From the NCBI RefSeq assembly GCF_016101585.1, contig NZ_JACFQG010000001.1, positions 1 to 64,000 of the forward strand: a stretch of DNA of 64,000 bases, given 5' to 3'. Made by a program: the position numbers and the translations under genes. Below are positions 49,174 to 64,000 of this stretch, piece by piece; within the stretch, counting starts at the first letter, position 1; every line of letters begins with the position of its first letter. This DNA is from Bifidobacterium polysaccharolyticum. GTDB lineage: Bacteria > Actinomycetota > Actinomycetes > Actinomycetales > Bifidobacteriaceae. The notes under the pieces are model-generated. The model saw only the letters and a list, made by a program, of their open reading frames with translations, had not been told where the DNA came from and did no database searches.

Positions 49174-52100
49174 TCACCCGTGCGAAGCAAGTGAGAGACT
49201 ATGTGTTTCCCTCCGGTGGCGGCGTGATGCCAGGACCCCGCCCATGCCGGTCATGCCGGTGGCCAGGGCGAGCAGGATGCCTTCCCCCCCAGCATTGGGG
49301 AGCACACCTGCGGGAAGGTACGTGTATTGGAGGGAGGTGTCCGGCGTTTTGGGTGCGCCGCCCAGCGTGTAGTCCACGTTGACCGTGACCGTGCCCGGCG
49401 CGTGTGCGGACGTCGTCACGGTCACGCTGCTGCCATCGCCGCGCGTCAGCCCTGATGCGGGGGTCTGGTCGAATCTGACCCCGGTGATCACCAGCTGCAG
49501 GTTGAACGACACCGGCACAGGAGCAGGATTCTGAGCTTTACTGTTATATTGCCCTGTGGGAATGCTGTCGTTGCCGAGCTGGCCATTCTCGTTGTCCCCC
49601 CATGCGTAGGCGTTGCCGTCGCTGCCTACGGCTAGCGAATGCTGGTATCCGGCGCTGACCTGTTCGGCTTGCAGTCCTTTGCTCTTGTCCTTGGGGCTGG
49701 AGGGGTCGCGCACGCGCATAGGAGCAGGATTCGTGTCACCCCACCAGATGGCGATGTTGATGCCGAGCACGCCCTTCTGGTTGGACCCCCATGCGTAGGC
49801 GTTGCCGTCGCTGCCCACGGCCAGCGAATAATTGTTCCCGCCGCTGACCTGTGTGTAGGTGAAGTCCGCGGGAGTGTCTGCAGGCGACATGACTTTGACC
49901 GGCGTAGTCCGGCGGGTTGTCGTCCCGTCGCCGATCTGGCCAGTGTCGTTATATCCCCATGCGTAGGCGTTGCCGTCGCTGCCCACGGCCAGCGCATGAT
50001 AGCCTCCGGCGCTGACCTGTGTGTAGGTGAAGTCCGCGGGCGTGTCTGCAGGCGACATGACTTTGACCGGCGTAGTCCGGCGGGTTGTCGTCCCGTCGCC
50101 GATCTGGCCTTTGTCGTTTTCTCCCCATGCGTAGGCGTTGCCGTCGCTGCCCAGGGCCAGCGAATAATAGACTCCGGCGCTGACCTGTGTGTAGGTGAAG
50201 TCCGCGGGCGTGCCTGCAGGCTTCTTCACTTTGACCGGCGTAGTCCGGCGGGTTGTCGTCCCGTCGCCGATCTGGCCGGAGTAGTTATGTCCCCATGCGT
50301 AGGCGTTGCCGTCGCTGCCCAGGGCCAGCGAATGATAGGCTCCGCCGCTGACCTGTGTGTAGGTGAAGTCCGCGGGCGTGCCTGCAGGCTTCTTCACTTT
50401 GACCGGTGTCGTCCGGGGGGAAGTGTTGTCCGTCCCGTCGCCGATCTGGCCTTTGCTGTTTTCTCCCCATGCGTAGGCGTTGCCGTCGCTGCCCAGGGCC
50501 AGCGAATGCCGACTTCCGGCGCTGACCTGCACGTAGGTGAAATCCATAGGTGTGTCTGCAGGCTTCGGCACCGGGGCGGGCGTGTTCCGCTGGTCGGGCT
50601 TGTCGATGCCGAGCTGGCCATAGTAGTTGCTTCCCCATGCCCAGGCGTTGCCGTCGCTGCCCACAGCCAATGAAAAGCCATAGCTGATCGAACTGTCGTA
50701 CATTGATCCGCTGACCTGGGTGAACCTAATGCCTCGGCTGGTGTCTGGCGGGGTGATGGTGGTGGTTTCGTTGCCGAGGCGGCTACCCTGGTCGGGGTTG
50801 ATTTTCCACGTGTTGTCGGGGTCTTTGAATGTCCATCTGGCGGTGAGGGTGAGGCTCTTGGTGACGGGCTTGCTGAAGTCGTAGGCGACTTCCCCGGTGA
50901 ACCATCCGTCGAACAGGTAGCCTTCACGCGCAGGGTCGGGGGAGGGTCGTTTCACCCTGCCGTTTGGAGTGGAGACGTTCTGGTCTGCTGGTTCGGGGTT
51001 TCCCCCGCCCGTATCGAAGTGGACCGTGAACGTGGATCTTGGTTCGGCGCCTCGTGTCAGCGGCTGGTCGACCGTGTAGTTGAGGTTTTTGGTGAAGGGT
51101 TGGCCGTCCTGTCTGCCGACGATGAGAACAGTGGTTGGTCCCGGCTTGCTGGCGGGCATGTCTGTCTGCCAGGCGTCGTTGTTCTTAGTGAGATTGAGCG
51201 GCTGGCCGTTCAGGCTGGCTGACTCCAGGATGGACGCTGTGGTGGTGCTGACTCTTGCTGGCTTGCCGGGCTGTCCCTGCCCGTCCACGTCCCACGTGAA
51301 CATGCTGCCTTGCCGGTCAATGGCGGTGATCCTGCTGCCGGTGCTTGCGGCCTGCATATACCGCTTGTTCCCGTCGTCCGCGCGCATGGGTGCTTCGCCG
51401 GGCTGCCAGGACCATACGTGGCCCTCCGTGTCGGTGATAACGGCCTGGCTATCATTGGCTGTAATCGAGTTGGTTTTTATGTTTGCCGGCAGGTTGACGG
51501 CTGTGGGACTGGTCGTGTTGTCGGCCAGGTAACGGATCCGCCTTTCCGTGTCCAGGAGGAGGAACCCCTGGTTGAGGGCATGGGCCTGGATGATGCGCAT
51601 TCCCGGGTCCTGCTTGATGCGCGCGGGCTTGGCGCTTCCGGTATTGGCCGTCTCCCAGGTCCAGGCCTGCCCGTCAGCGTCCACGATGAGGATCCGGCCG
51701 GGGGAGGCGATGGCGGTCACGGCCTGCGCCTTTCCGGGCAGGCTGGTCTCGGCTTGTTTTGTGAATTTCGGGTTCGGCTCCTGGCTGCCGGCATCCCTGG
51801 TCTGATAGGCGTGGGCCTGTCCCTGCTGGTCCACGGCCAGGAGTCGATTATCGTTCATGCCGATGCTGGTGAATTTGGTGTCCTGTCCGGTGTCGAGGAT
51901 CGTGGGCGTCGCTTGACCGCTGTTCCAGGTGTAGATCCGCTGGTCGGATCCCAAGGCGGCCTGCCGGTGGCTGCCGGCTGCGGCCTGCAGGTAGCGGAAC
52001 CCGTCGGCAGCATGGGTGGGGAGAGGAAATTGCACAGGTGTGCTGTCCTGCGTCCAGGTGTAGATGCGGCCGTCGCCGGTCAGGCCGGCAATCTGGTTTC

Positions 52101-52734
52101 CTGCGGCTTGGATGCTGGCGATTTGAGGTTCCTGCCTGTCGGGCGGGCTGATGGTCAGCCGCGCCCCTGTGGCGGGCCCGTGATCCGGGCTCAGCGTCCA
52201 GTCCGTGACCTTCGTCCACCGGGCTTTCAGGGTCGTGTCCTGGAGGACGGGGGTTTGGAAATCATAGGGCCGGCCGTCAAGCGTCCAACCCTCGAACCGG
52301 AAGCCCTCACGCTGTGGATTCTGTTGCGGGGCAGCAGCGAGGGTGCCGGTCTTCACGCTCGCATGGGTGGGCTTGCTGCTGTCGGCCGGGTCGAAAAGCA
52401 CCGTGTGCGAAGCCTGATCTTCCGTCTTGTCGGCCGATTCAGCCGGAGCGGGGGCTGTGCTGTCAGGCGTGCCCGCCGTCGACGACAGGGTGCTGGGCGT
52501 GGGGCTTAATGGTGTGGTGGTTTGTATCGGCGATGGTGAGGACAGTGGAGTGTCTGTTGCGTTGCTGTGGAGAGAGGCGGAGGTTCCGTCAGCTGCGCGA
52601 GGGGTCTGACGACCCCCTTCCCCGGAGGGGATGGGAGCGTCCTCTTGGGCGGATGCGACGCCCAGGCCTGCCAGCAGGCTGATCAGGACGGTCATCATCG
52701 CCAGGATGCGACGCAGCCGGGTACCCAGATGCAT
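49174..52734 (-). CDS. Cell-surface protein with InlB-type repeats, RCC1 repeats and LPNAG anchor
   Basis: 1,186 residues. Signal peptide: RRILAMMTVLISLLAGLGVA with cleavage expected near SAQ/ED at ~30. A Ser/Thr/Pro-rich stalk (30-108) is followed by an InlB-type beta-grasp repeat (~110-172, ending EGWTL...TLKARWT), a degenerate beta-propeller-like region (~200-520), a second InlB-type repeat (~595-665), and seven RCC1-type repeats of the form DGNAYAWG.N..GQIGDGT (~700-1060). The C-terminus has LPNAG at ~1145, a hydrophobic helix and RRHRRE: a sortase signal of LPXTG type with Ala in place of Thr. Likely anchored to the cell wall and used in binding to host or other surfaces; ligand unknown. 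Four of the RCC1 units are almost identical in DNA (168-bp period). Confidence 0.88.
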   Translation of the reverse strand: MHLGTRLRRILAMMTVLISLLAGLGVASAQEDAPIPSGEGGRQTPRAADGTSASLHSNATDTPLSSPSPIQTTTPLSPTPSTLSSTAGTPDSTAPAPAESADKTEDQASHTVLFDPADSSKPTHASVKTGTLAAAPQQNPQREGFRFEGWTLDGRPYDFQTPVLQDTTLKARWTKVTDWTLSPDHGPATGARLTISPPDRQEPQIASIQAAGNQIAGLTGDGRIYTWTQDSTPVQFPLPTHAADGFRYLQAAAGSHRQAALGSDQRIYTWNSGQATPTILDTGQDTKFTSIGMNDNRLLAVDQQGQAHAYQTRDAGSQEPNPKFTKQAETSLPGKAQAVTAIASPGRILIVDADGQAWTWETANTGSAKPARIKQDPGMRIIQAHALNQGFLLLDTERRIRYLADNTTSPTAVNLPANIKTNSITANDSQAVITDTEGHVWSWQPGEAPMRADDGNKRYMQAASTGSRITAIDRQGSMFTWDVDGQGQPGKPARVSTTTASILESASLNGQPLNLTKNNDAWQTDMPASKPGPTTVLIVGRQDGQPFTKNLNYTVDQPLTRGAEPRSTFTVHFDTGGGNPEPADQNVSTPNGRVKRPSPDPAREGYLFDGWFTGEVAYDFSKPVTKSLTLTARWTFKDPDNTWKINPDQGSRLGNETTTITPPDTSRGIRFTQVSGSMYDSSISYGFSLAVGSDGNAWAWGSNYYGQLGIDKPDQRNTPAPVPKPADTPMDFTYVQVSAGSRHSLALGSDGNAYAWGENSKGQIGDGTDNTSPRTTPVKVKKPAGTPADFTYTQVSGGAYHSLALGSDGNAYAWGHNYSGQIGDGTTTRRTTPVKVKKPAGTPADFTYTQVSAGVYYSLALGSDGNAYAWGENDKGQIGDGTTTRRTTPVKVMSPADTPADFTYTQVSAGGYHALAVGSDGNAYAWGYNDTGQIGDGTTTRRTTPVKVMSPADTPADFTYTQVSGGNNYSLAVGSDGNAYAWGSNQKGVLGINIAIWWGDTNPAPMRVRDPSSPKDKSKGLQAEQVSAGYQHSLAVGSDGNAYAWGDNENGQLGNDSIPTGQYNSKAQNPAPVPVSFNLQLVITGVRFDQTPASGLTRGDGSSVTVTTSAHAPGTVTVNVDYTLGGAPKTPDTSLQYTYLPAGVLPNAGGEGILLALATGMTGMGGVLASRRHRRETHSLSLASHG
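49851..50528 (-). repeat. Near-identical 168-bp tandem repeats inside the RCC1 gene
   Basis: The segment GTGTGTAGGT recurs at 49851, 50019, 50187 and 50355, exactly 168 bases apart (56 codons); a fifth, diverged copy (GCACGTAGGT) is at 50529 after a unit 6 bases longer. The DNA between copies is nearly unchanged, implying recent duplication or gene conversion. Confidence 0.85.
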
Positions 52735-61538: not shown

Positions 61539-63302
61539 TCATGTCAGGGAATAGCGCCGTTGTGCCAGTGATTGCAGGGGAGACCAGAAGAACCGGTCGG
61601 CCAGGACCACGAAGATGCTCATGACGGCCACACCAAGGATGATGCGGGGGGTGTCGCCGGTGGCGGTCACCTGGGCTATGTAGGCACCCAGGCCCCGGGC
61701 CGTCAGTTCCGTTTTGCCGTAGGAGACCACCTCGGAGACGATGGAGGCATTCCAGGCCCCGCCCGCCGCTGTGATGCCGCCGGTGCACCAGGAGCCGAAC
61801 AGGGCCGGTAGGATCAGGGTCTTCCATCGTTGCCAGCGGTTCTGTCCCAGACTGCGCGACATCTCCAGCAGGTCGTCGGGGATGGCCGAGGCCCCGGCGA
61901 TGACGTTGAAGAGGATGTACCACTGGGTGCCCAGGGCCATAAGCAGGATGCTGCCCCAGTTGATGTCGATTCGCCAGATGATGAAAACCATGGTGACGAA
62001 GGGGAAGATGAAGTTGGCCGGGAAGGAGGCCAGGATCTGCACCAAGGGCTGCAGGTAGCGGGAGATGCGCGGATTCATGCCGATCAGAGCACCTATCGGG
62101 ACCCAGACGATGGTGCAGACCACCATCAGGATCAGCACTCGCAGGAAGGTCAGCAAACCTAGCTGGAAGACGTGCCCGACCTCGCCCAGGCCCAGAGGAT
62201 GGATGACCATACGGTCCAGCTGCCAGAGACCCCACAGGCCGATCAGAGCCAGGCAGGCCCACCAAACCAGATCGCTTGCCCTCCTGCGTCCGCCGCCACG
62301 GCTCCAACGCGCTCCAGTGCGGCCCAGGGGGCGGGTGATCCGATCCAGCATGTCCGCCAAGGGGTGGCCCACCAGGCCCAACAGGTCCTTGACCCCGGAC
62401 AGGCGGATGACCGTCAGCACCAGGCTGCGCCGGGGCTCGGTGGACTGGCTGCTGGTGTAGCGGAACTTCTCAGCCCAGGCGGTCAGCGGCTTCCAGAGCA
62501 GGAAATCAATCAGCAGAACCACCACGATCATGGTCAGGATGGCCAGGCCCACCTTGCCCAGGTCCTGCTCGGCGGTGGCCTCCTCCACAAAGGAGCCGAT
62601 GCCTGGCAGGGCCAGGGTCCTGTTGTTGACCGAGATCATCTCGGAGGCAGTCAGGAAGAACCAGCCGCCGCCCATGCTCATCATGCAGTTCCAGAGCAGG
62701 GGAATCATGGAGTTGGGCACGTCCAGCTTCCAGAAGCGTTGCCAGCGGGTCAGGCGCATCAGCCTCACCGCCTCGTCCAGGTCGGCGGGTTCGCTGGTCA
62801 GGGAGTTATAGAAGGAGAAGGCCATGTTCCAGGCCTGGCTGGTGAAGATGGCGAAAATGGAGGCCGCTTCCACGCCCATGATGGACCCGGGGAATAGGAC
62901 CAGCCAGATGGAGATGGTGGCCGACAGAAAGCCCAGGACGGGCACCGACTGCAGGATGTCCAGCAGGGGGATGAGCACGGCGCCCAGGCGGCGGGAGCGC
63001 GCGGCGGCCAGTCCGTAGAGGAAGGCGAAGACCAGGGAGATGATCAGGGCCGTGAACATGCGGAAGAGGGAGCGCAGCGCATAATAGGGCAGGTTAGCCG
63101 GATCGGTAGAGACGTGCGAGGGCACGCCGGCCGGGCCAATGGGGGCACCTAGTGCGGGCAGCAGATAGGCCAGGGCCCCCAGTAAAACCAGGGCGCCTAT
63201 GGCTACGGCCAGGCCCGTCCATATGCGGGTGGAGCGCGATGCCTGGCTGCGGTCGTCGTTCAATGGAGAACGGAGCATTCCTGGCAGTACGACAGTATTC
63301 AC
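61539..63302 (-). CDS. ABC permease with two fused membrane domains (duplicated NitT/TauT type)
   Basis: 587 residues. Two binding-protein-dependent permease domains are fused. The first (~70-285) has its EAA-like loop at DLDEAVRLMRLTRWQRFWKL, the second (~360-575) at DDLLEMSRSLGQNRWQRWKT, and a hydrophilic linker carries Arg/Gly repeats (~295-345). The ATG at 63302 has GGGAGG six bases upstream. From memory this duplicated permease plus AAA-associated ATPase is a separate, poorly characterised group labelled anion transport by homology. Its control by an M-box would point instead to Mg2+ or related cation balance. Confidence 0.9.
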   Translation of the reverse strand: MNTVVLPGMLRSPLNDDRSQASRSTRIWTGLAVAIGALVLLGALAYLLPALGAPIGPAGVPSHVSTDPANLPYYALRSLFRMFTALIISLVFAFLYGLAAARSRRLGAVLIPLLDILQSVPVLGFLSATISIWLVLFPGSIMGVEAASIFAIFTSQAWNMAFSFYNSLTSEPADLDEAVRLMRLTRWQRFWKLDVPNSMIPLLWNCMMSMGGGWFFLTASEMISVNNRTLALPGIGSFVEEATAEQDLGKVGLAILTMIVVVLLIDFLLWKPLTAWAEKFRYTSSQSTEPRRSLVLTVIRLSGVKDLLGLVGHPLADMLDRITRPLGRTGARWSRGGGRRRASDLVWWACLALIGLWGLWQLDRMVIHPLGLGEVGHVFQLGLLTFLRVLILMVVCTIVWVPIGALIGMNPRISRYLQPLVQILASFPANFIFPFVTMVFIIWRIDINWGSILLMALGTQWYILFNVIAGASAIPDDLLEMSRSLGQNRWQRWKTLILPALFGSWCTGGITAAGGAWNASIVSEVVSYGKTELTARGLGAYIAQVTATGDTPRIILGVAVMSIFVVLADRFFWSPLQSLAQRRYSLT

Positions 63303-63667
63303 GATGGCCTCCCTTCAAGGTGCGGAACATCCCTGTCGGCAGCCTCGAAGACGGCGTTGCGATCGGCCATGAGCCGACCATTGTCATCGTTCAAGCTTCG
63401 GCTTCGCATGGTGTTTGGCCCTGCATTAGTCCCTGCCTTGACACGACGGGGACTGTTGACCTGCGCGGGGTGTCTCCACCACTTTGCGGCAGCATGCCTT
63501 GTCCATGCGGTAGCTTCACCTACCGACCACCCAATAACATAGATGGGCCTAAGAGCAGTGTCAAGCATTTGCCAAACCAGCGTTGCCGTCCTTGCCAGGA
63601 CTGACAATGGCAAGGGTCTGCACGCAGTCGGTGCAGGCGCGAAATGAAATGTAAGGAGTGAATCCCT
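63303..63667. promoter_or_regulatory. Divergent region: riboswitch leader / oxidoreductase promoter
   Basis: Holds the M-box leader on the minus strand (above) and, on the plus side, the promoter for the oxidoreductase gene with AAGGAG at 63653-63658 as its ribosome binding site. Sequence 63540-63650 probably contains both promoters; I see no confident -35/-10 pair. Confidence 0.45.
63365..63535 (-). ncRNA. Predicted M-box (ykoK-type, Mg2+) riboswitch
   Basis: On the minus strand the leader contains, in order, GGTAGGTGAAGCTACC, CATGGACAAGGCATGCTGCC, GCAAAGTGGTGGAGACACC, CAGGTCAACAGTCCCC, CAAGGCAGGGACTAATGCAG and ATGCGAAGCCGAAGCTTGAA followed by CGATGA. These blocks, their order and spacing match my recollection of the M-box consensus (GGTGAGGCTCC, TGCTGCC, GGGTCAACAG, AATGCAG, AAAGCTCTACGAT). 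The first block folds into a perfect CGGTAG/CTACCG hairpin. A small hairpin (TCGGC/GCCGA) near 63363-63377 lies between aptamer and start codon and may be the expression platform. Family assignment is by eye only. Confidence 0.8.
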
Positions 63668-64000
63668 ATGAAGATCGTGGCAGTCACGGCCAACCCCGAA
63701 CCCAAGAGTCTGACCGATGCGGCAGGCAACGCCCTGCTGGACGGGGCGGCCGAGGGCGGGGCTCGCACCGAGTTGATCGACCTTTGCGCCGAGGGGTTCA
63801 ATCCCGTCTTCGGCATGGAGGACAGGACCCACTACCTGGGCCAGGGACCCATGCCCGAGGATGCCCAGGCCATGCAGGAGCGCATCAAGGATGCGGACGT
63901 GCTGGCCCTGGTCTTCCCCGTCTACTGGTACAGCATGCCGGCCATCATGAAGGGCTTCGTCGACCGGGTCATCTGCCGGGGCTTCGCCTACCACGCTGAT
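63668..64000 (+). CDS. NAD(P)H-dependent oxidoreductase, flavodoxin-like fold (cut by window edge)
   Basis: 111 codons are visible and the frame is open at the right edge. Start MKIVAVTANPEPKSLTDAAG, then ELIDLCAEGFNPVFGMEDR and LVFPVYWYSMPAIMKGFVDR match the NQO1/MdaB/YwrO-like family of FMN- or FAD-dependent quinone/nitro reductases. Likely a cytosolic two-electron reductase. Divergent from the M-box ABC operon. Confidence 0.88.
   Translation, partial: MKIVAVTANPEPKSLTDAAGNALLDGAAEGGARTELIDLCAEGFNPVFGMEDRTHYLGQGPMPEDAQAMQERIKDADVLALVFPVYWYSMPAIMKGFVDRVICRGFAYHAD

Follow-up and report, generated by a model that had tools for sequence, protein, structure and literature searches.

An M-box riboswitch before a duplicated-permease ABC operon in Bifidobacterium and its relatives: a candidate Mg2+ importer

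Introduction

In bacteria, Mg2+ uptake is attributed to CorA, MgtE, MgtA, and some Nramp-type carriers, and MgtL is a short leader open reading frame (ORF) with early acidic residues that precedes a Mg2+-linked gene. For Salmonella, PMC8092293 reports that the early acidic codons of the leader ORF MgtQ hinder translation of MgtQ itself and increase that of mgtB, a Mg2+ transporter gene; mgtB also appears as a label in a gene table of PMC4070974. Short early-acidic upstream ORFs (uORFs) likewise precede a Mg2+-linked gene in relatives of the locus described here, and these are putative Mg2+ responders. The window, by which we mean the whole stretch of 64,000 nucleotides analyzed from Bifidobacterium polysaccharolyticum (contig NZ_JACFQG010000001.1, positions 1 to 64,000), differs in having no such ORF.

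As in described members of the M-box (ykoK leader) family, RF00380, the window's M-box is full length, lies just after a promoter-like site, and precedes a transporter operon. It differs in its target, an ABC importer rather than MgtE, CorA, or MgtA, and in a predicted platform that hides the Shine-Dalgarno (SD) sequence; no terminator-like site was found in positions 63000 to 63800. The M-box of Mycobacterium tuberculosis pe20, with its uORF2, has a translational anti-SD platform in the sections of PMC12810186 consulted, as is predicted for the window. Further likenesses are mgtC linkage and a conserved post-aptamer uORF, the latter in M-box relatives outside the window's clade. That clade differs in lacking such a uORF, its platform would act on the transporter gene itself, and the downstream genes are others.

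The M-box before this operon is already known for one species, Bifidobacterium breve. The text consulted of PMC5746004 (2017) places a YKOK leader in the 5′ untranslated region of Bbr_0406-07 (COG4986) and suggests metal-ion homeostasis. B. breve Bbr_0406-0407 and the window thus share a riboswitch before a COG4986 ABC operon, whereas mgtA/mgtC linkage, replacement of CorA/MgtA, and uORFs do not figure in that part of the B. breve account. Apart from this paper, no mention of COG4986 was found in the literature searched, and a literature search for Mg2+ ABC transporters gave no title on this ABC family. The NitT/TauT systems NrtBCD and CmpBCD have a homologous permease and ATPase and a similar fold; the window's system differs in carrying both permease halves in one chain and a PF09821 tail on the ATPase, and no substrate-binding protein adjoins its operon.

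M-box aptamer and promoter

The initial annotation had claimed a Mg2+-sensing M-box built of five blocks and had suggested a search with RF00380. All five blocks are there on the minus strand in the order claimed, and RF00380 bears the assignment out with a strong match (63534 to 63376, minus strand; 92.1 bits against a gathering score of 44; E = 6.3e-19) that covers model positions 1 to 169 of 169. It is the sole RF00380 match in the 2.23-Mb genome. In an alignment of 22 M-boxes, 18 from Bifidobacteriaceae and 4 from elsewhere, 25 of the 33 predicted pairs show two-sided changes that keep the pairing. The identity of the aptamer is as good as certain.

A motif scan found a sigma-70-like promoter-like site, TTGACA-17-TATGTT (63536 to 63564, minus strand), just 5′ of the aptamer and ending at 63536; this is the one such site in 63000 to 63800, against 0.1 expected (shuffle mean). 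Transcription starts about 7 bases past a promoter −10 site, and a start at that distance would sit within the first bases of the RF00380 match. Transcription thus probably begins at, or just within, the 5′ end of the M-box. The promoter-like site may exclude the outermost bases of the aptamer, which, together with several nonstandard pairs in the outer helix and a score of 92 bits against about 120 to 155 in the best M-boxes, would suit a leader that no longer senses Mg2+ in the window's clade and persists as a constitutive hairpin. Such a loss is very improbable given the full-length match, the two-sided changes, and the occurrence of an M-box in 24 of the 27 genomes sampled from the window's genus.

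Duplicated permease and PF09821 ATPase

The operon (63302 to 60166, minus strand) would encode an ABC importer of one duplicated permease and one PF09821-tailed ATPase. The duplicated-permease ABC system named as the target in the initial annotation was confirmed: a 587-amino-acid permease with a GTG start and two BPD_transp_1 stretches (61539 to 63302, minus strand) is followed by a 450-amino-acid ABC ATPase with a C-terminal AAA_assoc_C domain (PF09821; 60166 to 61518, minus strand). The permease is 99% identical in Bifidobacterium asteroides, B. mellis, and B. apousia. A fluoride riboswitch (RF01734; 60127 to 60055, minus strand; 35.9 bits against a gathering score of 34) lies 38 nt past the ATPase gene and before two crcB-like genes, which are not part of the ABC system; RF01734 exceeds its cutoff in four of eight named Bifidobacterium loci (L099, L100, L101, and L110). 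Elsewhere in the window, positions 49174 to 52734 (minus strand), as judged by eye, encode a predicted surface protein of 1,186 amino acids with RCC1-like repeats and a sorting-signal-like tail.

A BPD_transp_1 permease and an ABC ATPase are both present, as in NitT/TauT importers. Neither protein reached any NitT/TauT equivalog cutoff (nitrate, taurine, or sulfonate); the best models gave 74.4 bits against a cutoff of 209.05 for the permease (ntrB) and 214.5 bits against 357 for the ATPase. Binding proteins are absent among the 25 commonest neighbor families of 132 (upstream) and 126 (downstream) in homologues. The structure model of the permease (mean pLDDT of 84.6) is nearest to importer chains of FbpBC, CmpBCD, and NrtBCD (eight matches, E up to 0.001), which suggests a type I importer fold, with best matches to FbpB, CmpB, and NrtB. 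No convincing Mg2+-specific residue pattern was found in the permease among 117 aligned sequences, including the window's (one row with a stop was dropped), or separately among 37.

The predicted fold also bears on the bile-protection (efflux) role proposed for the B. breve orthologue. For a part played by Bbr_0406-0407 in the response to bile salts, PMC13368793 refers to Ruiz 2012b, and the citing of this orthologue as a bile-stress system counts against a Mg2+ importer. Bile efflux nevertheless seems improbable: the nearest folds of the modeled permease are those of importers, and homologues are recorded from Chlorobi, cyanobacteria, and soil Proteobacteria, where bile is unexpected. In addition, no Bbr_040x tag was found in the main text of PMC7360559, a later study of B. 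breve and bile that includes a transcriptome table. The M-box signals Mg2+, and cation loss could underlie induction by bile.

Co-occurrence of the M-box and the ABC operon

Comparison of homologous leaders, also suggested at the outset, revealed a conserved element. Among 151 sampled genomes of the family, the permease scores over 270 bits in 48, in one of them as two pieces, and RF00380 occurs in 30, in a scan with stricter filters that can lose weak matches. The M-box stands before 30 of the 48 orthologues and nowhere else. All 30 family M-boxes lie on the same contig and strand as the permease match, 74 to 614 nt before it, and none occurs in the 103 genomes without the permease (Fisher P = 1.8e-19, relatedness not corrected). 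The pairing of the M-box with this ABC system in the family is therefore firm. Seven of the eight named Bifidobacterium loci have an M-box; B. minimum (L102) has the ABC system and no M-box above the cutoff.

Outside the family, the association is found in a few places. In a sample of 394 class genomes, 26 have an M-box and 12 have the permease. At 29 loci taken from 46 M-box places besides the window's, the permease is next to the M-box or follows mgtC in L197, L198, and L199. M-box-ABC pairs comprise a Tsukamurella record (L119, L199, and L223 are the same record), L197, L198, and, in another phylum, Citrifermentans bremense (L132); the Citrifermentans pair and those of the three further actinobacteria are new here. 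All 71 non-Bifidobacterium homologous loci were scanned, and only 2 have an M-box (L119 and L132). Loci were examined in 10 of the 11 other permease-bearing genomes of the class: three have an M-box (L222 to L224), mgtA-mgtC is present in one (L219, which duplicates the L112 record), and the other six lack both an M-box and mgtA/mgtC. For most homologues in other phyla, no Mg2+ link was found.

Predicted expression platform

A hairpin, GGUCGGCUCAUGGCCGAUC (63361 to 63379, minus strand), is predicted to overlap the 3′ end of the aptamer and extend past it, and it is predicted too in folded relatives. The predicted expression platform follows (63308 to 63355, minus strand), in which an anti-SD arm (63355 to 63343) pairs with a second arm (63320 to 63308) that contains the permease SD, GAAGGGAGG (63316 to 63308, minus strand). 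This pairing of the SD-bearing arm with the arm around 63355 to 63343 recurs in all three folds (101 nt, 82 nt, and the whole leader). The 101 nt from the aptamer end to beyond the start codon have a fold z-score of −3.0 and the inner 82 nt of the platform alone one of −1.7; the fold energy of the whole leader is within the range of shuffles (z = −0.84). SD-hiding pairing is also predicted in seven distinct leaders, from 14 relatives (L013, outside the search pattern, was left out). By prediction, then, an anti-SD platform pairs with the permease SD, as in translational M-boxes.

The 3′ strand of P1 (63390 to 63385) could alternatively pair with the start region (63306 to 63301), so folding leaves the sign of the switch unfixed, and we infer its direction from described M-boxes. 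At high Mg2+, the folded aptamer would leave the anti-SD arm paired to the permease ribosome-binding site; at low Mg2+, the arm would be released and the site freed. The net effect would be production of the pump only under Mg2+ scarcity.

Mg2+ genes beside homologues and the probable substrate

Some homologues of the ABC system lie beside mgtA and mgtC, an observation that is new here; these genes are absent beside the window's operon. In L109, a magnesium-translocating P-type ATPase (TIGR01524, 1119.6 bits against a cutoff of 610.75) and an MgtC family protein (176 bits, under the 255-bit equivalog cutoff) are encoded just upstream of the ABC genes, and three upstream ORFs match Pfam MgtC (best E = 6.1e-37). 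Clusters of mgtA, mgtC, and the ABC genes share a common order in L109, L112, and L113; in L106, the other strand carries mgtA together with an incomplete mgtC. Among the 71 non-Bifidobacterium loci, 8 (L106, L109, L112, L113, L119, L126, L159, and L173) have an MgtC match within the flanks covered. A 132-residue MgtA match at the end of L116/L221 was excluded from the mgtA count. Beside homologues in general there is no consistent substrate gene; response regulators are the commonest neighbor families, with 9 of the 122 ORFs upstream and 5 of the 106 downstream.

Distribution of other Mg2+ transporters adds a second line of evidence. CorA exceeds its cutoff in 124 of the 151 family genomes. 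A group within one genus (G069, G075, G091, G103, G104, G133, and G141), established by elimination from the CorA-positive listing, lacks CorA and has no MgtA at E up to 1e-150, no MgtE at E up to 0.001, and no Nramp; all seven genomes have the ABC system. CorA is also missing from 20 further genomes; an MgtA match is present in 18 of them (that of G020, a contig-end piece, is below the cutoff), and G009 (76% complete) and G014 (57% complete) have neither CorA nor an MgtA match. In the genus of the seven, the ABC system is present in 15 of 67 CorA-bearing and 7 of 7 CorA-less genomes (Fisher P = 9.5e-5); on the permease tree, these seven group as a single clade, so the replacement amounts to about one event. 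It is a new observation that a clade of seven genomes in which no CorA, MgtA, MgtE, or Nramp was detected retains the ABC system throughout.

The ABC system is thus probably a Mg2+ importer, the likeliest reading of the genomic evidence. Mg2+-linked regulation is present in the window as the M-box, and Mg2+-linked neighbors occur in some homologues as mgtA/mgtC. The inference of a Mg2+ (or cation) transporter in the initial annotation is strengthened by these neighbors, by the pairing of M-box and ABC system in further genera and in a second phylum, and by the genomes that retain the ABC system without CorA, MgtA, MgtE, or Nramp. Against it, a CNNM/CorC protein (PF01595) is present in all 10 genomes tested, including the seven CorA-less ones, and further Mg2+ transporters of an unrecognized kind are possible. 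CorA, Nramp, and CNNM are all present in the window's own genome, too.

Alternatively, the system could carry another ion or solute (Mn2+, Co2+/Ni2+, an anion, or a polyamine) that is useful in Mg2+ shortage, with the M-box merely reporting limitation. Sequence and fold are nearest to the bicarbonate/nitrate permeases CmpB and NrtB and the iron permease FbpB, six loci (L106, L107, L109, L112, L113, and L218) have an ArsR/SmtB-type regulator gene next to the ABC operon, on the other strand, and PMC12810186 reports a Mn2+-type M-box group in mycobacteria. We consider this rather unlikely, since the mgtA/mgtC neighbors and the CorA/MgtA/MgtE/Nramp-less genomes indicate Mg2+, no NitT/TauT equivalog cutoff was reached, and the 25 commonest of the 132 and 126 neighbor families include none for nitrate or sulfonate use.

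uORFs in the leaders of relatives

Leaders were examined in 38 of the 48 permease genomes; the remaining 10, including the window's, belong to the window's genus and all have an M-box. Under strict rules, a short ORF with a strong SD is present in 30 of the 38 leaders (shuffles: mean of 2.8, maximum of 7, n = 200), and all 30 encode an acidic residue at positions 2 to 5 (shuffles: 0.7, maximum of 4). In L080 and L081, the uORF has wider spacing. The six leaders without a uORF form one clade, the window's nearest relatives (support, 100/99), so that no MgtL/MgtQ-type leader ORF was found in the window's clade. A post-aptamer ATG frame in the window that overlaps the permease GTG was rejected as a uORF; by eye, its ATG is not kept in L096.

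The N-terminal codons of the uORFs are under protein-level constraint (pN/pS of 0.27, 0, and 0.39 in three groups), and the tails are much less constrained (0.76 to 0.88). A fourth group has two conserved motifs separated by 20 to 27 codons, with length differences of whole codons only. The uORF of the CorA-less genomes (L073 to L077, L085, and L086) has a second conserved motif, DVPPEY, in which a diproline beside acidic residues could cause ribosome pausing.

In 17 uORF-only leaders, the −10 box is 27 to 122 nt from the uORF, too short a distance for an M-box. A permease tree was built from 37 of the 38 family sequences, without L078, plus three outgroups. Its well-supported branches require no fewer than three switches between leaders with both M-box and uORF and uORF-only leaders; M-box losses are the simplest reading. 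The ATPase match in nine uORF-only relatives (L061, L062, L064, and L066 to L071) is in two pieces, with a gap between the ABC and PF09821 domains. In the 14 leaders with both elements, the uORF SD is predicted to be largely paired, with one or more SD bases open in several (e.g., L081, L082, L086, and L087), and the fold energy is not unusual (10 z-scores from −0.6 to 0.8, none below −1.9). In one uORF-only clade (nine of 10 leaders used), the uORF folds onto its own SD; five pairs changed on both sides, and the covariation term is nil.

At class level, 24 of 29 M-box loci have an SD-preceded ORF after the aptamer, many without an acidic residue at positions 2 to 5. The scan found no shared uORFs in other phyla apart from L132, where by eye a post-aptamer uORF has a TTG start. 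As read by eye, the M-box in this Citrifermentans leader (L132:3280-3900) is followed by a terminator-like hairpin with a T-rich tail and then the TTG-started uORF, and a 12-base stretch, GACAGTCATAGT, is common to the L132 uORF region and the L081 leader. L159 and L168 share an unrelated-looking short ORF.

By analogy with MgtL/MgtQ, we hypothesize that the uORF may be a second Mg2+ sensor. We tentatively extend the probable Mg2+ importer to a fuller scenario: the COG4986/PF09821 ABC system may be an undescribed kind of ATP-driven importer and the only recognized Mg2+ importer of one small-genome lineage, and the family may ancestrally have had two stacked Mg2+ sensors, the M-box and a ribosome-destabilizing acidic leader peptide able to outlive it.

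Significance

An ABC Mg2+ importer, if true, would add a primary-active class and be an unusual kind of magnesium transporter. Close permease homologues come from what we take to be about nine phyla, so many proteins annotated as anion transporters would gain a function. The leader series, with the uORF missing in one clade and the M-box in several, is a natural experiment in how two RNA-level sensors combine or replace each other.
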